DNA of 42,631 bases, taken from a virus. Positions 1-16,426 of this stretch are shown one piece after another. The stretch covers positions 1-42,631 of the IMG/VR virus record IMGVR_UViG_3300032242_001182; one strand, 5' to 3'. Position 1 is the stretch's first letter. Each line of letters opens with the position of its first letter. A program made the translations under genes and the position numbers. The notes under the pieces were generated by a model. The model worked only from the letters and a program-made list of their open reading frames with translations. It was not told the DNA's origin and ran no database searches.

Positions 1-113
1 GGTCATAGTTGACATTTCGTCAGTTATTGTTTTGTACAGATTTAAAGAGCTCTAGCACATCTCTCTACGTGTGGTACTACCATTCTCATTGCAATCAATT
101 CCATGGCATCCCC
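1..113 (-). ncRNA. ssrA: tmRNA (ssrA), 5' part, cut by window edge
   Basis: Read on the minus strand from 113, the sequence begins GGGGATG, the usual start of a tmRNA acceptor stem, followed by TGGAATTGATTGC, which resembles the conserved tmRNA D-like region. Short complementary pieces (AGAG/CTCT and AGAT/ATCT, interleaved) could form the first pseudoknot. At nucleotide 87 of the RNA comes AATAACT followed by GAC; this is the kind of sequence that precedes a resume codon, and the resume codon would be nucleotide 93, close to position 90 in Escherichia coli. The tag would begin (Ala)-Asp-Glu-Met-Ser-Thr-Met-Thr and runs off the window. The RNA would rescue stalled ribosomes and tag their products. 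The D-region is not an exact match to the commonest consensus, and the 3' tRNA-like half cannot be seen. It lies 43 bases after the preceding gene. Confidence 0.66.
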
Positions 114-156
114 ATATAATTATGTAAATATACTAAATTAATTTGAATCTACCAAA

Positions 157-513
157 TTATTTAGAAAATTGTAAAAGATTTGGAAGATACAAACTTATTT
201 TTTGCATCTTTTTTGATACAAAATTTAATGATTTTTTATTTGCATCCATTATTGATTGGTTATCACCAGATATTTTCCAATCTAACTCTGCCCAAATATA
301 TAAAGGTGAAGCTATATACAACGATATAGAATCAGTAGATACTTCATATATAAAAGAATTTATATCATTTACTTTTTGAACAAAATATCTTGTTATATAT
401 CCAATAGCATAATCTTCATCGGTTGGTGATGGGACGTGTGTAATTATTTTTTTACTACGAAACGCATCTTTATTATTTTTATTTACCGTATTGTATCTTG
501 TTACAGAAATCAT
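157..513 (-). CDS. Conserved T4-like phage protein, unknown role (118 aa)
   Basis: A small soluble protein without signal peptide or membrane segment. The N-terminal half has a run typical of a protein seen near baseplate genes of T4-like marine phages (roughly KKIITHVPSPTDEDYAIGYI, residues 22-41), then beta-rich sequence with a tryptophan pair around the middle and a basic C-terminus. The family resemblance is from memory and no function is assigned. It starts 11 bases after the hub-like gene and is the last protein gene before the putative tmRNA, so it probably shares the baseplate transcript. There is no Shine-Dalgarno sequence; the leader is A/T-rich. A role in baseplate or virion assembly is inferred only from position. 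Confidence 0.7.
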   Translation of the reverse strand: MISVTRYNTVNKNNKDAFRSKKIITHVPSPTDEDYAIGYITRYFVQKVNDINSFIYEVSTDSISLYIASPLYIWAELDWKISGDNQSIMDANKKSLNFVSKKMQKISLYLPNLLQFSK

Positions 514-524
514 AATTAAATAAA

Positions 525-3269
525 TTATTTTGGATTAGTAAAAATTTGTCCTCCTGGTTGAAAACTTTGAAATTGATTTGTAAACAAATTGTTAGACTGT
601 AGGAATGGATATCCTGTAACTGATGATGTTTTTAATACATTTATAAAATCTGCATTAATTTCTTCCGCAGTTTTTGGTTTAATAGTAGCAGTTTTTGTAC
701 TACCTTGACTTACTCTGTAATCACCTGTAACGCTGGTGTACCAATTCATTGCCCCCAATGTGTGTTCTACATTTGTTATTTGAAAAATTCCATTATCAGT
801 ATATTGTTTTGGAATTCCGTCTATTACAAACATATCCCCTCTTCTTAAACCAGAAGTACCTAAAACTTTAAAAGTGTATTTGATTGGTAAAGGATGTGAT
901 AATCCACTTTTATCAGAAAATGCATTTTGTTTAAGTACATCTAAATAGGAAGTATCATCATAACAATAAACTCTATAATAATAATTAAAATTACCAATAT
1001 CTTCAGTTGCTCCAATTACAGGTTCGGTAACATCTACCATTGGGTCAGATACTATATCTATTTTTTCTAAATATACCGTTGCATTACTATTTTGTTTTTG
1101 TTTTATATCGTTTTGAATTTTATCATAATTAGCAACTATTTTATCATCACTGGTTATTATCTTTGTACCACCAGCCCCATCTACAATTGTTTGTACAGTT
1201 GCTATTACTTTTCCATCATACATATATTTTTTTACAAAGATACTTGCAATATCTCGGTTTTTTGTTTGGTCTTCTTCTACTACTGTTACGTTTGAATAAT
1301 CAACTCCGTCAATTGTTGTTGCTACTGCATTTTCTTTATCTTTATCTTTATCATCTTTAATATCATTTCCCGCTGCATCTTTTCCGGATTCTGCATAAAT
1401 TTTATCTTGTCCGTTAATTACAACTCCACTTACAAATAGGTCTCTTGTTTTTTTAAAAAATGATGCATCACTTACATTTGTATATCTTTCATCAGGATTT
1501 GTTGCCAATTGTAATCTTCTACAAACTAAATAATTTACTAATTCACCTGTCAATGATAAATCAAGATTTGCTTCTAAAAAAGGAGAGTTTGTACCGGAAT
1601 GTTTAAATCTTGCAATTTGAGTATCACCATCTCCTAAATTTCCAACCCAGTTTTCATCAATTACTGTTAATTTTACATTACCATTTTTTACATCAGAATC
1701 ATCTTCAACTATTTGAAAAAACCAAAATGAATTTACAGCTCCTGTCATTTCATTTAAAATATCTAATAAAACTTCTCTAATATTTTTATTTGGTTGTGTT
1801 ATTTTTTCACAAAACATATCAAAATTTACATAAAGATTTTTTAAGAATCCCCAATATCCACCATTTTCATTAAATAAAATACCTTTTGATAAATCTTTTT
1901 TAATATCATCATATTGTACAAATTCAACAGTTGTACCATTTACAGCTCTATATATTGGTTTATATTCTTGGGTAGTCTTATCAGGATTAGTAGTTATTAT
2001 AGTTCCATCTGCTCTAAATTCATAACTAGCTCCACCAAAAAATAAAGCTCCAAAATTTGGTATAACACCAGCAATAGCTAAAGCACTTTTGTTAGTTGAA
2101 TACATATATGGAAATGCACCTATTCTAGCATTTTGTATATCAATTTTTACATTTACCTGCTTATCACCAATTTTATATGCATCTAAACTACCATTTCTAT
2201 TTAATATTTCCATAGCTAATCGCATAGAAATATATTTTTGTTCGGATTTTAATTTATCTTTTTTAAATGAAGTTTCTGGTATAGTATTTGTTGTAGCATA
2301 TTTCCATTCGGTAATTTTTAAAGCTTCATCTACTACTTCATCCATATTTATAAAATCTTCTTTAACTATTTTAAAAGTAGAATCATCAATAATATTTTTT
2401 ACAATTTTTAATATTTTTTGTGCAGGTAATGAATTAAACATTTTTTTAAACCTTCTTTTTTCTGCAACCGTTTCATCTTTTCCGAGCTCAGCTGGTCCAT
2501 ATTTTGATGTATCTGATTGTGTATCAGTTACTTTTCCAGTTGCTTTATCTATTTGTGTTATTTGTTTATGTGATTGTAAAAATGTTGGTAAACCAGGTGC
2601 TCCTCTTAATTTTACTTCCATAACGTAAGTTTCTCCTTCATTAGATATACTACCACCAACAATAAATCCTAAAAAACAATCCCAATCACCGTGAGAATTT
2701 ACTCTCCAATTATGTAAATCATTATAATCTAAATTTCTTTTTGCAATATTATTTACAATAGAAGTTGCACCAATACTTTTTCCTTCGGATGTTGTTGTTG
2801 GAATCAAAGAAGTTCCTGCTGCATCCGTATTCCAACCAAATTCAACTGCTAGAGAATAACCCGGTTGTAAAAAATAATCTTGCATCATTTCCAATTGTTC
2901 TAATGAAAAACAATTTATTGTTAAAGTTGCTTCTCTAGAAATTTGGTCTTTTCCTTCTTTAACATTAAATCCAACAACTACTGGACTTGGTCTTAATCCT
3001 CTATCCGCACCACCTAAAACTAATTTTCCATCAAAAGTTCTTCCTAAGACACCTGTCATTCTTTCATTACCATATATGGACTCACCAGCTGCTTCAAACA
3101 TTTGTAAATCATTGTTTGATGTTATTATTAAACCGTTTTGTCCATTAACCACTGCACCTGAAAATACTCTTACAAATGTATTAAGCTTTGATGCTTGATT
3201 ATTTTGTCTTTTTTTATTTTGCAGATTTAAATAAATAGAACGGTCTATATTTGTTAATGATGGGAACAT
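525..3269 (-). CDS. Putative baseplate hub protein (gpD/XkdQ/gp27-like)
   Basis: A 914-aa protein. The C-terminal part (about residues 810-870) carries a pattern typical of tail hub proteins: a stretch reading GDMFVIDGIPKQY followed by an ITNVEHTL element and NWYTSVTGDYR, in which a beta-barrel is followed by a 'result in the wider context' strand. The first 260 residues are beta-rich and contain a region like the tube-binding barrel of hub proteins. Around residues 625-655 there is an Asp/Lys-rich low-complexity insertion that looks like a flexible loop. It follows the LysM baseplate gene by 4 bases, the position of the hub gene in PBSX-type tails. At 914 aa it is much longer than T4 gp27 (about 390 aa), so the exact equivalence is uncertain. 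Hub identity is inferred from the C-terminal pattern and gene order. Confidence 0.6.
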   Translation of the reverse strand: MFPSLTNIDRSIYLNLQNKKRQNNQASKLNTFVRVFSGAVVNGQNGLIITSNNDLQMFEAAGESIYGNERMTGVLGRTFDGKLVLGGADRGLRPSPVVVGFNVKEGKDQISREATLTINCFSLEQLEMMQDYFLQPGYSLAVEFGWNTDAAGTSLIPTTTSEGKSIGATSIVNNIAKRNLDYNDLHNWRVNSHGDWDCFLGFIVGGSISNEGETYVMEVKLRGAPGLPTFLQSHKQITQIDKATGKVTDTQSDTSKYGPAELGKDETVAEKRRFKKMFNSLPAQKILKIVKNIIDDSTFKIVKEDFINMDEVVDEALKITEWKYATTNTIPETSFKKDKLKSEQKYISMRLAMEILNRNGSLDAYKIGDKQVNVKIDIQNARIGAFPYMYSTNKSALAIAGVIPNFGALFFGGASYEFRADGTIITTNPDKTTQEYKPIYRAVNGTTVEFVQYDDIKKDLSKGILFNENGGYWGFLKNLYVNFDMFCEKITQPNKNIREVLLDILNEMTGAVNSFWFFQIVEDDSDVKNGNVKLTVIDENWVGNLGDGDTQIARFKHSGTNSPFLEANLDLSLTGELVNYLVCRRLQLATNPDERYTNVSDASFFKKTRDLFVSGVVINGQDKIYAESGKDAAGNDIKDDKDKDKENAVATTIDGVDYSNVTVVEEDQTKNRDIASIFVKKYMYDGKVIATVQTIVDGAGGTKIITSDDKIVANYDKIQNDIKQKQNSNATVYLEKIDIVSDPMVDVTEPVIGATEDIGNFNYYYRVYCYDDTSYLDVLKQNAFSDKSGLSHPLPIKYTFKVLGTSGLRRGDMFVIDGIPKQYTDNGIFQITNVEHTLGAMNWYTSVTGDYRVSQGSTKTATIKPKTAEEINADFINVLKTSSVTGYPFLQSNNLFTNQFQSFQPGGQIFTNPK

Positions 3270-3273
3270 ATTT

Positions 3274-3564
3274 TTATTGTATAAAGTTTCTTATTATTCC
3301 TAAATAATTATTTGGTATTCTTAAAATTGTACCTTCTTTTAATCCTAAAGGAGCGGTGTGTATATTATTTGCAGATGCTATTACCCACCAATAAGATGAA
3401 TCATTGTAATATTGATATGCTAAAGTATCCAATCTGTCACCTGTTTCAGTTGCTACATACACATCATCATCTCTTAATGGTATATTTGGATATATTTTTG
3501 TTTTATATACCAATCTACCATCAGTTGTTTTTTTAATCATATTATTTTGATATCTACTTATCAT
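3274..3564 (-). CDS. LysM-domain baseplate protein (gp53/XkdP-like)
   Basis: A 96-aa protein dominated by one LysM-like domain (residues about 35-85): TGDRLDTLAYQYYNDSSYWW, then VIASANN and a final GTILRIPNN. The 'LDTLAYQYY...YWWVIASANN' pattern is shared by T4 gp53 baseplate wedge proteins and the LysM proteins of PBSX-like tails, where the domain docks baseplate parts to the hub or wedge. No signal peptide is present, so it is not a cell-wall hydrolase component. It lies between the 682-aa baseplate protein and the hub-like gene with gaps of 9 and 4 bases, consistent with translational coupling inside the baseplate operon. The leader is A-rich with no Shine-Dalgarno sequence. Domain confident; exact gp53 equivalence less so. 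Confidence 0.75.
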   Translation of the reverse strand: MISRYQNNMIKKTTDGRLVYKTKIYPNIPLRDDDVYVATETGDRLDTLAYQYYNDSSYWWVIASANNIHTAPLGLKEGTILRIPNNYLGIIRNFIQ

Positions 3565-8394: not shown

Positions 8395-8595
8395 AGATGG
8401 TGTAGAAGCCGTTTTTGCTTGTTCGCTTTCTTTCTTTTTAGCTTCTATTAATCTTTTATAATAAAATAATCTTAATTTTGTTGGCATTTTGTATAGTTCC
8501 ATCATAGTAAATCCATTACCATAATTAACCATATCAAAAATTTGAGAGTGTAAATCTACACTATGATTCGGACTTAGGCCAAAAAAACCCAACAC
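8374..8595 (-). CDS. Frameshift-linked tail assembly chaperone-like ORF
   Basis: A 73-codon ORF overlapping the end of the 252-aa gp26-like gene by 35 bases in another frame. The first possible start is a GTG at 8595-8593, with AGGAGG 15 bases upstream, which is too far for a good ribosome binding site. Conserved-looking sequence (DLHSQIFDMVNYGNGFTMME, then MPTKLRLFYYKRLIE) starts only after the shared T7 run. This resembles the small ORFs that follow gp26-like genes in T4-like marine phages. Its place between tube and tape measure genes is where tail chaperones of the lambda G/GT type are made by frameshifting. It is therefore probably expressed as a C-terminal extension of the 252-aa protein, giving 314-315 residues. 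Independent translation from an internal start is the alternative. Confidence 0.65.
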   Translation of the reverse strand: MLGFFGLSPNHSVDLHSQIFDMVNYGNGFTMMELYKMPTKLRLFYYKRLIEAKKKESEQAKTASTPSKVRIKR

Positions 8596-9319
8596 CTAAA
8601 GTGATAAGAGCCTCCTCTATCTCTCCATCCGCATGTTGGTAATTAAATTTCATATCCATATCTGGTGATATTTTTCTAGCATAATCTCTTAATGCTCTAC
8701 TGTCTCTAGCTAACATATTATTTACATATTTGTTAATACTTGCTAAATCAGTTTTACCATCTACAGATTTAATCATATATCTTAAACGAGTTGTAATATC
8801 GGATGAACTATCTTTGTTTAATTTTTCCAATGCAGCAATATCTTTATCAATTAATTTTTCATCACCATGTGTTAATATCTTAAATGTTAATTTTGTACCA
8901 GATGGTGTTGTAAATTCAAATTCATTTTTATTTTTAAATAATGAAAAATCTATTTCTTTTGTTTGTATTTTGGATAAATCAACACTTCCTTCTATGGTTG
9001 TTTTTGCATAGTTTGAATAAAATTCAAAATTATAATCAGGTCCATATCCTAATAAACGAGTTGCTAATATAATTGCGTTTTTATCACCATTAATAATATC
9101 ATCAACATTTATATTATCTACAATGATTGATTCAAATAACTTATCTAACACTACACCTTTTTTAATAAGATTTGAAGATGATAAGATATCTTCTTCTTTT
9201 GCTGTCATTAATTTAATTGTAATCTGACCTGATGATAATGGATGTTCTTTAGGATAAACTAAACCTTTTGATGGTAGGTCTAATACTTCTACCGGAAAAT
9301 CGTATTCTTTTTGTGTCAT
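8561..9319 (-). CDS. T4 gp26-like baseplate hub/tail chaperone protein
   Basis: A 252-aa protein with the N-terminal pattern of the T4 baseplate family found in marine T4-like phages: LDLPSKGLVYP near residue 13, then IKLMTAKEEDILSSSNLIKK and a NGDKNAIILATRLLGYG segment. The C-terminus ends in GVGFFWPKSES; an FFWP ending is typical of the family. The protein is soluble and acidic. It is usually annotated as a baseplate hub subunit. However, it lies between the tube and tape measure genes, with a second ORF overlapping its end at a T7 run, the arrangement of tail assembly chaperones. Both roles are possible. Transcription probably starts at the octamer 9348-9341, just after the terminator at 9402-9378. 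No Shine-Dalgarno sequence. Confidence 0.75.
   Translation of the reverse strand: MTQKEYDFPVEVLDLPSKGLVYPKEHPLSSGQITIKLMTAKEEDILSSSNLIKKGVVLDKLFESIIVDNINVDDIINGDKNAIILATRLLGYGPDYNFEFYSNYAKTTIEGSVDLSKIQTKEIDFSLFKNKNEFEFTTPSGTKLTFKILTHGDEKLIDKDIAALEKLNKDSSSDITTRLRYMIKSVDGKTDLASINKYVNNMLARDSRALRDYARKISPDMDMKFNYQHADGEIEEALITLGVGFFWPKSES
8581..8590 (-). promoter_or_regulatory. Candidate programmed frameshift site GGGTTTTTTT
   Basis: On the coding strand the overlap of the 252-aa and 73-aa ORFs contains GGG TTT TTT TGG. Seven T in a row let a Phe tRNA re-pair after slipping. Going from the first frame to the second needs a -2 or +1 shift; a -2 shift is known for the Mu tail chaperone. A 6-bp hairpin (AGTGTA/TACACT, 8562-8547) starts 18 bases downstream and contains the first-frame stop codon. 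Confidence 0.55.
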
Positions 9320-9340
9320 AAACTTTATTGTTTTTGTATA

Positions 9341-9348
9341 TATAAATA
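9341..9348 (-). promoter_or_regulatory. TATTTATA octamer, candidate late promoter
   Basis: The coding strand has TGTATTTATA ending 21 bases before the ATG at 9319, directly after the terminator 9402-9378. The surrounding 40 bases resemble those upstream of the gene at 12829, with TTTAAAA..CAAT before the octamer and AAACAATAAA after it in both. Confidence 0.45.
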
Positions 9349-9377
9349 CATTGTTTTAAAAAAATTGAAAATAAAAA

Positions 9378-9402
9378 AGGGATACCTTTTGAGTATCCCT
9401 TA
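9378..9402 (-). terminator. Rho-independent terminator after tail tube gene
   Basis: A perfect 9-bp stem pairs 9378-9386 (aagggatac) with 9394-9402 (gtatccctt) around a 7-base loop. On the minus strand it is followed by a T run (9379-9374 complement, partly in the stem). It lies 18 bases after the tube gene stop and should insulate the abundant sheath/tube message from the genes below. Confidence 0.82.
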
Positions 9403-9420
9403 TTTTTATCTTTATTTTTA

Positions 9421-9909
9421 TTAGTATTCTAAGATAGCGTAATCGTAAGTTAGAGTTAAAGTAATTGTTGCTGGGTCATTTGAACTGAAGTCTAATTCAC
9501 CAAATTGAGCTTGGTTAATATATGCTCCTTTAATTTTCCATTGTTCAACTTTATCACCTACTGGTCCTAATAGATACAAATCGATATCTTTTTTATAGAA
9601 ATCTGCATATCCATCTCTACCAGTGATTGATTCGTGCGATAATCTCACCCACTCCATTACTGATTGTGCCGCTGATGGAACAATTGGGTCATAAAGAGTT
9701 ATTTGGATATCTTGCCATTCACCTTTACCTTTCAATTGTCTTTTTACGTTGATATGGTCTAAAGTTACCTTTTCAAATTGAATTGAAGGTCTATTAGCTG
9801 CTTTAACCATATAACCAGGTACACCATCCCATTCCATGATGAAACGATTTTTCATCTTTGGTTCGAAGTTCGTATAGAACATTTTATCAAACTCTAATAT
9901 TTCTGCCAT
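9421..9909 (-). CDS. gp19: Tail tube protein (T4 gp19-like)
   Basis: A 162-aa protein of the usual tail tube length (T4 gp19 has 163). The N-terminus (MAEILEFDKMFYTNFEPKMK, then NRFIMEWDGVPGYMVKAANRP) and the C-terminal strand run (SNDPATITLTLTYDYAILEY) match T4-like tube proteins. The middle has the WQDIQITLYDPI strand and a GRDGYADFYKKDIDLYLLGP loop. Subunits form the stacked hexameric rings through which DNA passes and which the sheath surrounds. It lies directly after the sheath gene and is followed by a strong terminator. It has a real Shine-Dalgarno sequence (AAAAGGAAC, 5 bases before ATG), unlike most genes here, which fits very high expression. Confidence 0.95.
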   Translation of the reverse strand: MAEILEFDKMFYTNFEPKMKNRFIMEWDGVPGYMVKAANRPSIQFEKVTLDHINVKRQLKGKGEWQDIQITLYDPIVPSAAQSVMEWVRLSHESITGRDGYADFYKKDIDLYLLGPVGDKVEQWKIKGAYINQAQFGELDFSSNDPATITLTLTYDYAILEY

Positions 9910-9933
9910 TTTTTGTTCCTTTTAATTTATATT

Positions 9934-9941
9934 AATAAATA
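9934..9941 (-). promoter_or_regulatory. TATTTATT, near match to the octamer
   Basis: The coding strand reads GAGATATTTATTAATATAAATT, with one mismatch to TATTTATA in the box at 9941-9934, 24 bases before the tube ATG. The position and flanks resemble the exact copies. It could give extra tube message below the sheath gene. Weak on its own. Confidence 0.28.
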
Positions 9942-9962
9942 TCTCTTTGTTACTTTTTTGTA

Positions 9963-12281
9963 TTATGCTGAGAAACTTGCTCCAGTTGGTAAGATGTTGA
10001 AATCAATTACGATGAATTCAGCAGTCTTAGCAGGTTGTAAGTAAATTGCTCCAGCTAATATGTTTCTATCAATCACATCAGGTGTATTGTTTGATTCATC
10101 CATTACAACTCTGAATGCGTATAAACCTTGTCTTTGTTGGATTGCCTCTAAATAAGGGTTTACAGTATTCAAGAACTTCTGACGAGTTGTTGATGTATTT
10201 TGTTCGAACACTAAGTAACGAGATGTAGATGCAATGAATTTCTTCATAGTGATAAGTAATCTTCTAACATTGATTCTATCCAATGCAGATGCTTTATCTT
10301 GTAAAGTCTTTTGTCCAAATGCTACAATACCTTGACCAGGGAAAGTTGCGATTGGGTTTACTTTGTTTTCATATAAAGTATCTCTTTCAGCGTGTGTTAA
10401 TCTATTTAATACACTTACTGCTCCGGTAATACCACCTCTATTTAAACCAGCAGGTGCAAACCATTCAGCCGCCAATCTATCGTTACTTGCAAATACAGCA
10501 GGTAATAAAGTTGAAGGTGGAACAGAAGTTAATTTATTTGTATTAGTATCAATTGTTTTAACCCAAGGATAGTAAGTAGCTACATAGTTAGAATCTACAG
10601 CATTTGCTTGTTCAGTTGCATCGGTGATTAAATCATCAATTGCGTTAAAATCAGCAATGTAGAATGCATCTTGTCTACTTTCAACCATATCAATTACAGC
10701 AGTAGTTACCGCTGGATGTAAACTTCTTACAATACCAGGAGTTGCTACTAAGTTAATATCCCATTCATCAGGATTTGATACAGCGTTTATTGCTTGTGTG
10801 TATGCTAATGTACCAGTAGATGTTCCAGTTGAACAGTTAAATCCTTGTGTGTTAGCTGCACTAATATCCATTCCTTTGTTAATTGGAGTTGTTGGATTCA
10901 TACCATCATATCCTTGTTGGAATGCCAATACAAATTGTCTTTTAACCATATCAGCTGCCGATGAACCAGTCATTACATAGTTCAATTGAGAATCAAAAGC
11001 AAATGGTACATTCGAACCAGTTTCTGCGTTTTGTGGTATAGCTTTAAGATAGTTTGTGTTATCAGTTTCAGTGAAATCAAATCCACTATAATAAATTGGA
11101 GATGATGAAGTATTACCGATTGAGTTAGTTTGATAAGCTACTGCAGGTATTTTTTTTGCTAAAGTACCATTACCACAATAAACTGGGTTTGTGTATTCGC
11201 CATGTCCGAATGGAGCTGCTGAAATTGGATAAGAACCCGGTCCAGCTAAATCTTCATCATTCATTACTTCAACTCTGATATATGCTGATTTATTTGAGTA
11301 ATCACCATGTTCAGTTATTTTACCATTTGAATCAATAGTAATATATCTATCACCAATTTTTCTAGCAATATAGTTTGGAGAAGCAGGGTCTAAGTTTACA
11401 TTGTTAAATGTTTCATATACAACTTTTCTCTTATCATTATCAGCGTATCCTCTAATAGTTACAGTAAATACTGAATAATCAGTTGCACCATCTTCACCAG
11501 CTGCTTTTACATTTGAAATAGCAATTTTAAATTTAGTATTATAAACATCACCATGTCCTAAAGTTACAAACTTAAATAAGTTATATCTTTGACCACTTAT
11601 TAATTGTGATTGAACTACTGGAGTTTCAGCTGCATAATAACCATATGTATAATCTTGTGTAGGTAATACAGTTCCAGTTACTAAAATATCTTCATTAACT
11701 GAACCAGTGTAATTTCCTGCAATATTCTTAAAGTAGTTATATGCGTATGCTTTCTTAGAACCAAATGGGAATTGACCAAATACATCATTTAAATCATTTG
11801 TATCTGATGATAAAATTGATGCTGATGTGAATATACCAGATGCAGATAAAAAGAATGAACCATCTTTTGATTTATCGGTTACAATAGTTGCTCCGGTAAA
11901 ACCATAGTTTTGATATCCTTTATCGGTATTATATAATACACCGATTAATTTTGTTCCTAAACTTGCATTAGTAGAACCACTAGCAAAGATACCTAAAGGT
12001 GCTACTTGTGAGTAACCACCAGTTCCAGCTACTCTTACGATTGTTGCTGTTCCAGCTTCTGCTAAATAGTTTTGTACTGCATATTCAGTATAATAAGTTC
12101 CATCAGGTGTTCCGAAAATATTTTCGAACTCTGATTGTGTTCTCACAATAGTTGGAACAAATGCAGGTCCTTGTTTGAAAGGTCCTATAAATGCTGCTCC
12201 GATTTCTCCTATTCCTTGTTGTAAGAATGATAGGTCATTTTCTCTTGTGAATACGCCAGGTGATACGATTCTTTCTGCCAT
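9963..12281 (-). CDS. gp18: Contractile tail sheath protein (T4 gp18-like)
   Basis: A 772-aa protein. The N-terminus (ERIVSPGVFTRENDLSF, then GEIGAAFIGPFKQGPAFVP and a SEFENIFGTPDG motif) and C-terminus (NVRRLLITMKKFIASTSRYL, later a LAGAIYLQPAKTAEFIVIDF strand) are diagnostic of phage tail sheaths. The middle 450 residues are a variable beta-rich surface region, longer than in T4 (659 aa in total). Sheath subunits form six-start helices around the tube and contract on infection. The tube gene follows after 53 bases. A clear Shine-Dalgarno sequence (GGAGA, 12292-12288, 6 bases before ATG) is present, and a terminator and octamer lie upstream, so this is probably a strong separate transcription unit. 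Confidence 0.96.
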   Translation of the reverse strand: MAERIVSPGVFTRENDLSFLQQGIGEIGAAFIGPFKQGPAFVPTIVRTQSEFENIFGTPDGTYYTEYAVQNYLAEAGTATIVRVAGTGGYSQVAPLGIFASGSTNASLGTKLIGVLYNTDKGYQNYGFTGATIVTDKSKDGSFFLSASGIFTSASILSSDTNDLNDVFGQFPFGSKKAYAYNYFKNIAGNYTGSVNEDILVTGTVLPTQDYTYGYYAAETPVVQSQLISGQRYNLFKFVTLGHGDVYNTKFKIAISNVKAAGEDGATDYSVFTVTIRGYADNDKRKVVYETFNNVNLDPASPNYIARKIGDRYITIDSNGKITEHGDYSNKSAYIRVEVMNDEDLAGPGSYPISAAPFGHGEYTNPVYCGNGTLAKKIPAVAYQTNSIGNTSSSPIYYSGFDFTETDNTNYLKAIPQNAETGSNVPFAFDSQLNYVMTGSSAADMVKRQFVLAFQQGYDGMNPTTPINKGMDISAANTQGFNCSTGTSTGTLAYTQAINAVSNPDEWDINLVATPGIVRSLHPAVTTAVIDMVESRQDAFYIADFNAIDDLITDATEQANAVDSNYVATYYPWVKTIDTNTNKLTSVPPSTLLPAVFASNDRLAAEWFAPAGLNRGGITGAVSVLNRLTHAERDTLYENKVNPIATFPGQGIVAFGQKTLQDKASALDRINVRRLLITMKKFIASTSRYLVFEQNTSTTRQKFLNTVNPYLEAIQQRQGLYAFRVVMDESNNTPDVIDRNILAGAIYLQPAKTAEFIVIDFNILPTGASFSA

Positions 12282-12864: not shown

Positions 12865-14376
12865 TTAAATTTTTCCATTTTTAATATCTTGTAAAAATTC
12901 ATTATGAGTATAAAACATATCCGGCACATCACTATATAAGGTGTACATATCTTTATACATTGATTTTAAATCCACTTTTAAATTAGCATTATATATAGTA
13001 TCATCTATTGCTTCTTCAGTTATGTGTCCCAAACCTGCCAATAACCAGCTCCAAACACCCCAACCACTTCCAGATATTATTCCTGAAAAATCCTTAAACG
13101 CCAGTACTCTATTCTTGCACAATTTTAATACTTCTATATTTCTATCAGTTATTTCTAAATCATATTTTATGTATTTCCAAAAATTAGTATCTTCTCTTCT
13201 TGTTAAATAATGCATTTGAATAAGGTCTTTATAATCATCAATTGTTTCCGCAAAGTTTTTATTAAAAAGATTTCTATTATAATCAGTTAATGTTTTTTCT
13301 TTTGTATAATGTAAATAACTTGAACAAAATTGTTCTAATGTACTACAAGTATTGTGTATTGATGTTGCTTCCAATGGTTCTAAAAAATGAGAACTTAATC
13401 CAACTGAAAATACATTACCTATCCAAGCTTTATCACATCTACCAGGAGTAAATGGTATTATTCTAAATTTATCTATTTTTCTACCAGTAACTTCTTGCAA
13501 TTCTTTATGTGCTTCTTCATCGGTTATAAACTTATCAGAATAAACATAACCACATCCATATCTTTCCTGAGTAGGTATTTGCCACATCCAGCCATTAGGC
13601 ATTGCTAATGCTAAAGTTTCTGGTACTATTGTTTCGTTTGGTTCAAATTGATGAAAGTATGTCATTGCTTTATTAGTTGGCAACCATTTAGAATAATCAA
13701 CCCAACTACTACCCATAGGTTTTATAAGTGCTCTACGAAATCCAGTACAATCAAACCACATATCAGCCTGAATTACTTCATCTGTATCTTTTAATTGTAC
13801 ACTTTTTAATTCTCCGTTTTCTATTATTAAATTATAAATTTCTGCATCAATATGCTTAACATTATTTTTTAAAGCAACTTCTTTAAAGTATTCACCTACT
13901 TTATGCGCATCAAAATGATATGAATAAGATGCTTTAGGTTGCCCATCCCCTTTATATATAAATGGAACTTTATTTTTTGCCCACAAATGCATACATGGAG
14001 ATGAATCAGTTGCAATTCCATATTTTAAAGCAAGAATATAATCAAAATCTAAATTATCTAAATAGGTTTTTTGCGGTCCCAATGGTTCGTAAAAAGACTC
14101 ATTTTCACCATGCCAATTCTTACAATGTATTCCCATTTTTATAGTTGAATTGGTCTTTTTATGAAAATCTTTTATACTAAATCCTTTGATTTTATTTAAT
14201 CTATTTCTTAAAGTATCAACAAAGCTTCCAGTTGAACCTTCACCAGCTCCTATAATTCCTAATTTAGAACTATCAATTACAGTTATATCATGCAAATTAT
14301 TATCAACTGTTCTATTAGCTAAGAATAACGCAGATAACCATCCAGCCGTACCACCACCTACTATAACAATTTTCAT
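12865..14376 (-). CDS. Flavin-dependent tryptophan halogenase family protein (503 aa)
   Basis: A complete halogenase-fold protein (PF04820 family). It uses FADH2, oxygen and halide to form a hypohalous species that a lysine delivers to an electron-rich ring. Visible motifs are the FAD-binding GGGTAGW (7-13), GAGEGS (43-48), the presumed catalytic Lys80 in STIKMGI (Lys79 in PrnA/RebH), the diagnostic WMWQIP (263-268), and EPLEATS (333-339) with Glu336 at the position of the catalytic Glu346 of PrnA. All key residues are kept, so it should be active. The substrate is unknown. A halogenase (VirX1) is known from cyanophage Syn10. This gene follows the fused halogenase by 4 bases, shares its first 22 residues, and lacks the C-terminal extension. 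No flavin reductase is in the window, so one would have to come from elsewhere. Confidence 0.92.
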   Translation of the reverse strand: MKIVIVGGGTAGWLSALFLANRTVDNNLHDITVIDSSKLGIIGAGEGSTGSFVDTLRNRLNKIKGFSIKDFHKKTNSTIKMGIHCKNWHGENESFYEPLGPQKTYLDNLDFDYILALKYGIATDSSPCMHLWAKNKVPFIYKGDGQPKASYSYHFDAHKVGEYFKEVALKNNVKHIDAEIYNLIIENGELKSVQLKDTDEVIQADMWFDCTGFRRALIKPMGSSWVDYSKWLPTNKAMTYFHQFEPNETIVPETLALAMPNGWMWQIPTQERYGCGYVYSDKFITDEEAHKELQEVTGRKIDKFRIIPFTPGRCDKAWIGNVFSVGLSSHFLEPLEATSIHNTCSTLEQFCSSYLHYTKEKTLTDYNRNLFNKNFAETIDDYKDLIQMHYLTRREDTNFWKYIKYDLEITDRNIEVLKLCKNRVLAFKDFSGIISGSGWGVWSWLLAGLGHITEEAIDDTIYNANLKVDLKSMYKDMYTLYSDVPDMFYTHNEFLQDIKNGKI

Positions 14377-14380
14377 ATTT

Positions 14381-16426
14381 TTAGCTTTCGATGAATACGG
14401 TTAATGTCATTCTACCATCATTAATATCAGTTCCAAATAAATCAGCTGGAGCATGTAATATATCTGATGGATATAATACAAATCTATTGTAGATATTTTC
14501 TGCTAATTTAGTTTCTTTCATATCATCCGAACTAAGTAATGTACCACCATTAGGGTCAGCGTTTGGTGTTAAATAAACTATACCTGCCCAATTTGAAAGG
14601 TCTTTGTGATATCGTATTTCTTCAAAAGAAGGAAAACATTCTGATTTTGTCTTTTCTAATGCGTAATGAAAATGTAAAGATAAAAATTTACCTGCTAATT
14701 TTGGATTTAATTTTGAAATTTTTGAATACATGTAATTTACAAGTTCTGGATATTCTTCCATTGTAATTTCGCCTCTAAATCCTTTCCAACCAACATTTCC
14801 TACTTCTTGATGAGATTTAAATTTATGATTCAATGCTAAGTCTCTAATAGCATCAGGTTGGTCAAAAAAGTTATCTTCAATTATTAAACCTTCAAATGGA
14901 TTATTACTGGTTTTTCGTTGTACTTGCTCTAAAAATTCATTATGAGACCAATATTTTTTCATATCCTTTGAGTAATATGTATATAATTTATTCCAAGCTG
15001 CTTCAGAACCAGTATTTAAGCCATGATTCCACAATGTATCAGCACATACTCTTCGAGTAAGATGTCCTAGCCCACTTAAAATAAAACTAGTAACACTCCA
15101 TCCACCAGAACCAAAATGATTATTAAAATCTTTAAAATTAGGACTTCGGTGTTTACATATTTCAATTACATCAATAACATCATCTAATTTTGGTACATCA
15201 TTTTTATAATATCTCCAAAATTTACTATCTTCTCTTTTAGTCATATAATGGTGTTGTATTAATTCTCTATAAGAATCAATCATATTAGCCACTATTTTAT
15301 TATATTTTTTTTGTGCGGTTGGATATATTGTTTTTTCAGGTTCAGCATCTAAATAAAAATTAGAAAACAAATCCAACTGAACCATAGTTGCATGTATTGA
15401 AGTTGCTTCCAATGGTTCTAAAAAATTAGATGATAATCCTACTGCAATAACATTATTAGTCCAAACATTTTCAACTCTGCCTGCTTGAAATTTTATAATT
15501 CTATTTTGTGTTATTTTTCTGCCTGTAATTTTTTCTAGCTCTTTTTGTGCTTCTTCATCAGTTACAAATTTATCACAATATACATAACCACATCCGTATC
15601 TTTCTTGTGTTGGTATCTGCCACATCCAACCATTAGGCATTGCCCATGCTAAGGTTTGAGGTCTAATTTCTTCACCTTTTTCATATGGCCAAAAATAAGT
15701 CATTGCTTTATTAACAGGTAACCATTTAGAATAATCAACCCACCCACCATCAACTGCATTTATTAATTTTCTATTAAATCCAGTACAATCAAACCAAAGG
15801 TCAGCTGTAATTACTTGATTAGAATCCAGCAAATCAACACTTTCTATATTACCGGTATTTGGATTTACATCAATTTCACCAACTTCCGCATCAATATAAT
15901 TTACACCATTTTTTATTGCAACTTCTTTAAAATATTGTCCAACTTTGTGAGCATCAAAATGATATGAATATCCACCAGTTGGATTAAAATTGATAGAATA
16001 AAATGGAATTTTATTATTTTCCCACATTGGACCTGTTGGTGATGATAAATATGATTCTCCATATGCAGTTGCTAAAAGAAAATCAATATCAACACTTTCT
16101 AAAAATGTATGACTTGGTTGTAATGGTTCAAAAAATGATTTACCATCTCCATTCCAATCTTTGCAATTAATTCCTAATTTTATAGTAGCTCCGGTTTTTT
16201 CAACAAAGTCTCTTTCAGATAATCCTTCTAATCTTTTTAATTTTTTATTTAGAACTTCTAAAAGTAAACCAGTAGAACCTTCTCCTGCACCAATAATTGG
16301 AATTTTAGAACTTTCTATTACTGTAATTTCATGTATTGGCATTTCATCAATTCGTTTATTACGATTTGCCAAAAACAAAGCTGACAACCAACCGGCCGTC
16401 CCTCCACCTACTATAACAATTTTCAT
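14381..16426 (-). CDS. Halogenase fused to a 2OG-Fe(II) oxygenase-like domain (681 aa)
   Basis: Residues 1-505 are a flavin-dependent halogenase: GGGTAGW (7-13), GAGEGS (47-52), presumed catalytic Lys83 in ATIKLGI, WMWQIP (267-272) and EPLEATS (337-343) with Glu340. Residues about 512-681 form an extra domain starting EGLIIEDNFFDQPDAIRDLA. It has the residue spacing of 2-oxoglutarate/Fe(II) oxygenases: His607-Lys-Asp609 in RYHKDLSNWAGIVYLTP, NGGTLL, a distal His658 in DILHAP, and Arg672 before a final strand. It resembles DUF6445-type domains. The fusion would couple halogenation and hydroxylation of the same or successive substrates; this is inference. It lies 4 bases before the second halogenase and 10 after the 91-aa gene. 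The oxygenase role rests on motif spacing only. Confidence 0.88.
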   Translation of the reverse strand: MKIVIVGGGTAGWLSALFLANRNKRIDEMPIHEITVIESSKIPIIGAGEGSTGLLLEVLNKKLKRLEGLSERDFVEKTGATIKLGINCKDWNGDGKSFFEPLQPSHTFLESVDIDFLLATAYGESYLSSPTGPMWENNKIPFYSINFNPTGGYSYHFDAHKVGQYFKEVAIKNGVNYIDAEVGEIDVNPNTGNIESVDLLDSNQVITADLWFDCTGFNRKLINAVDGGWVDYSKWLPVNKAMTYFWPYEKGEEIRPQTLAWAMPNGWMWQIPTQERYGCGYVYCDKFVTDEEAQKELEKITGRKITQNRIIKFQAGRVENVWTNNVIAVGLSSNFLEPLEATSIHATMVQLDLFSNFYLDAEPEKTIYPTAQKKYNKIVANMIDSYRELIQHHYMTKREDSKFWRYYKNDVPKLDDVIDVIEICKHRSPNFKDFNNHFGSGGWSVTSFILSGLGHLTRRVCADTLWNHGLNTGSEAAWNKLYTYYSKDMKKYWSHNEFLEQVQRKTSNNPFEGLIIEDNFFDQPDAIRDLALNHKFKSHQEVGNVGWKGFRGEITMEEYPELVNYMYSKISKLNPKLAGKFLSLHFHYALEKTKSECFPSFEEIRYHKDLSNWAGIVYLTPNADPNGGTLLSSDDMKETKLAENIYNRFVLYPSDILHAPADLFGTDINDGRMTLTVFIES

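Follow-up and report, generated by a model that had tools for sequence, protein, structure and literature searches.

Phage-borne transfer-messenger RNAs (tmRNAs), and the mechanism by which they act, are already known: ten were listed in 2014 (PMC4131195), and a 2025 database, in which the commonest tmRNA tag length is 10 aa, holds 79 unique ones (PMC11915505). The mycobacteriophage Bxz1 group and Bacillus phage G carry their tmRNA genes in large genomes, as the phages described here do, and the tmRNA of cluster C1 phages is accompanied by about 30 tRNAs (PMC4131195, PMC3029335). Cellulophaga phage Calle, which infects flavobacteria, encodes 20 tRNAs and one tmRNA with a long tag (PMC8776804); this gene (MT732433:42950-43311) scores 86.6 bits against RF00023, and ARAGORN reads its tag as AQIEANMEAVNAILNLEVAVGV. 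The mechanism of the family that we describe is the known one. Relative to PMC4131195, PMC11915505 and PMC8776804, and as far as these sources go, what is new is the size of the family, its conserved long tag, its degron-poor variants and the presence of group I introns in phage tmRNA genes.

The starting point is a gene at the left end of the window, by which we mean the whole stretch of viral DNA analysed, an IMG/VR record of 42,631 bases that itself stops at the tmRNA. The initial annotation had proposed a phage-encoded tmRNA from a GGGGATG start, a TGG..TTGAT block and an AATAACT-GAC resume region at nucleotide 93, and all three are present on the minus strand of positions 1-113 (the last as AACAATAACT-GAC). 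GGGGATG (107..113, minus strand) forms the 5' strand of the acceptor stem, and the tag frame begins at 1..21 (minus strand) with GAC GAA ATG TCA ACT ATG ACC, seven codons (DEMSTMT) before the contig ends. A cmscan match to RF00023 covers model positions 1-114, including the 5' acceptor strand and the D-like region, as a 3'-truncated hit of 13.9 bits (E=0.0076 with 3 kb searched), which is far under the 47-bit gathering score and weak taken alone, and which would be weak over the entire window. Owing to the truncation, ARAGORN called no tmRNA in the window, and an RF00023 search over its whole length gave no match. The decisive evidence is the comparison with complete relatives: the window differs at two of 113 positions from the complete phage tmRNAs L008 and L023 (111/113 identity). 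In complete relatives GGGGATG pairs 7/7 with a CATCTCC that in the window would lie beyond nucleotide 113, past the contig edge. ARAGORN likewise places the resume codon at nucleotide 93 in L004, L008, L012 and L023. These comparisons confirm a one-piece tmRNA gene (ssrA) whose 5' portion occupies window positions 1-113 (minus strand) and whose remainder is lost at the contig end.

How far does this gene extend among phages? The exact 5' 22-mer of the window gene recurs in 12 other IMG/VR phage contigs, six of which hold full RF00023 matches of 78-93 bits, above the gathering score. The missing 3' end had been predicted to read CATCTCCACCA, pairing with GGGGATG and keeping the G-U alanine signal, behind a TTCGA-type T loop, and the complete close relatives bore this out, their 3' ends reading CATCTCCACCA or CATCTCCAC(CA) after a TTCGA T loop. 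Pooled scans of IMG/VR with the 5' 22-mer, the resume region and a codon-degenerate tag start yielded at least 169 loci, at least 121 of them full length. At least 94 of the full-length genes are distinct, in this single family, against the 79 phage tmRNAs of the 2025 database (PMC11915505). The full-length genes span 307-458 nt, with the resume codon at nucleotides 87-96 (121 genes listed), and their RF00023 scores are modest, at 57-97 bits. Complete copies also lie well inside phage contigs of 155-237 kb, between phage genes.

The relatives share with the one-piece bacterial tmRNA (RF00023) a G3.U70 acceptor stem, a T arm, a resume codon near nucleotide 90, a tag frame with its stop codon and a match above the cut-off. 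The acceptor stem is fully paired (7/7) in 121 of 122 genes, the same 121 that keep G3.U70, and it occurs in a dozen forms, all perfect, among them GGGGATG/CATCTCC, GGGGGTG/CACCTCC, GGGCCTG/CAGGTCC, GGGGCAT/ATGCTCC, GGGGGAG/CTCCTCC and GGGGAAA/TTTCTCC; the T stems take more than 20 forms, nearly all paired 5/5. So much compensatory change argues strongly that the tRNA-like domain works. The PK1-PK4 regions are fitted with several non-standard pairs by the Rfam alignment. A hairpin at the resume codon, UGAC-GAAAU-GUCA in the L008 fold, was rejected, since its columns hardly vary and it is absent from the L016 clade, which leaves it without covariation support. In L016 a terminator-like hairpin followed by T8 comes directly after CCACCA.

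The tag sets these RNAs apart from bacterial one-piece tmRNAs: it is 23-26 aa long across the family, and its core, E-[LMK]-STMT-[FY], was not found in bacteria with the patterns used. Close relatives of the window gene encode tags of 23-24 aa that read DE[MKLV]STMT[FY][DEN][DS][LMV]M.F[VI]G..YA[VLY]AA with small variations (complete tags of L008 and L023: DEMSTMTFDDLMAFVGADYAVAA and DEMSTMTFEDLMAFVGADYAVAA, respectively), and the window's DEMSTMT, opening on the resume codon GAC, falls within their DE[MKLV]STMT. Over 52 distinct 23-aa open reading frames, dN/dS is 0.20 in codons 5-11 and 0.23 in codons 12-23; values of about 0.2 indicate that the peptide, beyond the RNA alone, is under purifying selection. 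The core recurs outside the main clade. L016 and L017, which were found through relatives of a neighbouring 914-aa protein and not through the tag, encode ADVELSTMTFEDAMAWMNSFDYAVAA or a near variant of it, further members read A[DN]VELSTMTF..., and E-[LM]-STMTF is kept across clades with other codons (GAA TTA TCT ACT versus GAA ATG TCA ACT). Within the main clade, tag codons 1, 2 and 4 (window 10-21) are nearly fixed at synonymous sites as well (GAC 112/113, GAA 111/113, TCA 110/113), at positions where the search pattern allowed other synonymous codons.

The C-termini are more variable than the core. Most tags end in YA[VLY]AA (YAVAA, YALAA, YAYAA), the normal degron end, and others in DEATFA (4 contigs), DLAIA or EYAYQMAA; two deletions destroy the tag end altogether, giving DYE and GRLIK (L158, L169). 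The DEATFA, DLAIA, DYE and GRLIK ends do not look like normal degrons, so that the -AA degron appears to have been lost in some members. Beyond the family, a tblastn search of 50,697 phage records gave no match to the tag, and a blastn search of the same records with the tmRNA gave only generic matches to the 3' end, which was the only blastn similarity to the tmRNAs of the Bxz1 group and phage G, whose hosts also differ. Neither of two degenerate nucleotide patterns matched any of 84,980 prokaryotic genomes, although bacterial tags that spell the same peptide in other codons would escape such a search. The tmRNA of Calle, a podovirus, has an unrelated tag and stands outside the STMTF family. 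Neither Flavobacterium phage immuto (Immutovirus) nor Microcystis phage Mel-JY01, the nearest named phages judged by capsid and sheath proteins, gave a tmRNA match, the latter showing only a 17-nt T-arm-like match, and the tmRNA reported for Maribacter phage Panino (PP540027) was unsupported by RF00023 (best score 26 bits).

The surroundings of the window gene are those of a tailed phage. Upstream of the tmRNA, all on the minus strand, lie genes for a 118-aa protein (157..513), a 914-aa protein of the baseplate region (525..3269), a gp25-like baseplate wedge subunit (3274..3564; phrog_7145, E=6.7e-15) and, at 8561..12281, baseplate hub, tail tube and tail sheath proteins (phrog_150, phrog_4542 and phrog_23). 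The 118-aa and 914-aa proteins have no PHROG or Pfam match. By tblastn, the 118-aa gene is present in 61 and the 914-aa gene in 60 of the 169 loci listed, at about 28-77% identity, immediately before the tmRNA and in its orientation, never downstream; relatives of the 914-aa protein precede the tmRNA in L014, L016 and L017, and thus also in the divergent L016/L017 clade. The remaining loci differ in context; tRNA-Leu or tRNA-Met is a frequent neighbour, together with tRNA arrays that reach 20 or more members. GOLLD RNA was found near the tmRNA in L007 (1621-2038, 269 bits), where it sits between the tmRNA and a tRNA array, and in L011 (1-387, 245 bits). Within the tail-gene region of the window we also observed two adjacent tryptophan halogenase genes (12865-14376 and 14381-16426, minus strand; PF04820, 310 and 325 bits), the second with an extra C-terminal part that matches DUF6445.

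The initial annotation had placed the tmRNA in a late-gene cluster beside baseplate genes. The adjacency stands; the late-gene label is left unsupported, as the tmRNA, although it lies downstream of the tail and baseplate block, has a promoter-like sequence of its own, of Bacteroidota type. The Bacteroidota promoter consensus is TTTG / TAnnTTTG, and the sequence upstream of the window tmRNA, TTTG-N20-TATATTTA, resembles it: the -7-like element TATATTTA (125..132, minus strand) stops 11 nt short of the tmRNA 5' end, at about the same distance as in many relatives, and the -33-like TTTG (153..156, minus strand) lies 20 nt before it, just past the 118-aa gene's stop codon. In a sequence as AT-rich as the window the motif is by itself no rarity: the minus strand has seven, against about three expected. 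In about half of the loci (for example L027, L065 and L132), AGTTCTTTAA(C/A).TAT, resembling a boxA antitermination signal, directly precedes the mature 5' end.

Two family members carry group I introns (RF00028, 96-97 bits) in the T loop: L134 (5666-5943, 278 nt) and L222 (2385-3182, 798 nt), the latter in the same record as L129, with L135 as an empty site. By our own count the insertion, GGGTT^CGAATCCC, falls at T-loop position 3. The longer intron, that of L222, contains an antisense 198-aa open reading frame that looks HNH-like by eye and has no Pfam match. A 2025 survey found position-3 tmRNA introns only in Bacteroidia and none above 700 bp (PMC11915505), a maximum that the 798-nt intron of L222 exceeds.

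These introns also bear on the host. The capsid and sheath proteins are closest to those of Microcystis phage Mel-JY01, a 484-kb uncultured phage and Flavobacterium phage immuto, with a relative's capsid protein 50% and the window's sheath protein 41% identical to the immuto proteins. From these identities, the promoter-like sequence and the introns at T-loop position 3 (PMC11915505), our best guess is that the hosts are probably Bacteroidota. Taken together, the comparisons make it highly probable that the window gene belongs to a functional one-piece tmRNA encoded by a large T4-like myovirus whose hosts are probably Bacteroidota. The family is widespread in large, mostly uncultured phages, and its members are predicted to add a long, strongly conserved tag of their own to unfinished proteins.

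Why does the contig stop at the tmRNA? The window's last 45 bases are identical in at least 45 other loci, after which the loci diverge into TTTGATTC, TTCGAAGA, TTTGATGA or TTCGATGA, and in 45 of the 169 loci listed the sequence stops no more than 450 nt downstream of the resume codon, compared with nine upstream of it. Since so many loci share the final 45 bases and then diverge, the break is best read as an assembly branch in a stretch common to co-occurring variants. A genuine genome end was rejected as the cause, because relatives run through this point and the break sits where the variants diverge. The position of the gene exactly at a contig end might otherwise have suggested a host tmRNA remnant, left at the attachment site where a phage had integrated or joined from host DNA by chimeric assembly, and tmRNA genes are indeed common integration sites (PMC3029335, PMC12595487). 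We regard such an origin as extremely improbable: the cited attachment sites use the 3' part of the tmRNA, whereas the 5' end is the part present here; complete copies lie deep in phage contigs of up to 237 kb, among phage genes; the two degenerate patterns went unmatched in the prokaryotic genomes; and the assembly branch accounts for the break.

It is also very unlikely that the RNA no longer serves trans-translation, or that it acts as a decoy that titrates SmpB to block ribosome rescue by the host. RNAs reduced to the tRNA-like domain (TLD) do occur in phages, in DS6A (PMC4131195) and in the two huge phage genomes LR756508 and LR756511, and the deletions in L158 and L169 that destroy the tag end would fit disuse, but a decoy has no need of a tag, and the resume codon, the stop codon and the acceptor and T stems are kept, as is the tag frame, under purifying selection. 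Less remote, though in our view still unlikely, is that the tmRNA works but that its long tag serves mainly as something other than a ClpXP degron: an address recognised by an adaptor or protease specific to the phage, or a mark for another fate. Divergent clades preserve the N-terminal core E-x-STMT-[FY] with different codons, some members lack the -AA end, and a minority lineage has a ClpP-family gene upstream of the tmRNA; against this, most tags retain the YA[VLY]AA of a normal degron, ClpP occurs in few lineages and no ClpS was found.

The analysis shows the gene, its structure, its tag frame and selection on the tag. The functional tmRNA that we favour would probably be transcribed from its own housekeeping-type promoter and mature as a tRNA does. 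Because many members do not encode CCA (it follows the discriminator in only 51 of 122), the host would have to add it. Host alanyl-tRNA synthetase would then charge the RNA with alanine through G3.U70, and host SmpB and EF-Tu would bring it to stalled ribosomes, each of which would move to the GAC resume codon, add A-DEMSTMT... (23-24 aa in close relatives), stop and be released, the tagged fragment presumably passing to a ClpXP-type protease. A search with a positive control detected no SmpB (PF01668) in 12 large contigs, which are fragments; host SmpB is therefore probably used. The likeliest use is ribosome rescue kept going during infection, alongside the phage tRNA set that often adjoins the gene, when degradation may be removing the host chromosome, ssrA included, and broken mRNAs may be plentiful.

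A search of 13 contigs for RF-1-type release factors or ArfB and for ClpS found none, and three of the 13 encode a ClpP-family protein. In L234, L235, L236, L099, L124, L126, L154, L156, L166, L169 and L170 such a gene precedes the tmRNA by 3.2-4.9 kb in the same orientation. It occurs in few lineages (3 of the 75 loci whose upstream sequence exceeds 5.2 kb), and we treat it as a lead. We offer tentatively, as a proposal that is on balance doubtful, that the tag core (E-x-STMT-[FY]-[DEN]-D) may be a phage-specific docking signal to a chosen protease or adaptor, in some lineages perhaps the phage ClpP, or may serve to protect tagged proteins. If so, the phage would control what becomes of incomplete proteins without regard to the host tag. 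A constant N-terminal core combined with a degron end that is sometimes lost points to a function of the core that the model based on E. coli does not foresee.

Some unusual tmRNAs were also observed in huge phages. LR756508 and LR756511 each have, beside a full tmRNA, a TLD-only RNA (L200, LR756508:414804-414915, and L201, LR756511:2250-2386) of 112 or 137 nt, scoring 58 and 50 bits with G3.U70 kept; these resemble the mini-tmRNA of DS6A, which is reported to inhibit tmRNA. The tmRNA L198 (LR756508:92434-92880) may encode a tag of some 36 aa with AAV at its end (GVNNADYESAGFTAEDFAQMDGESLYHGSERKPAAV).
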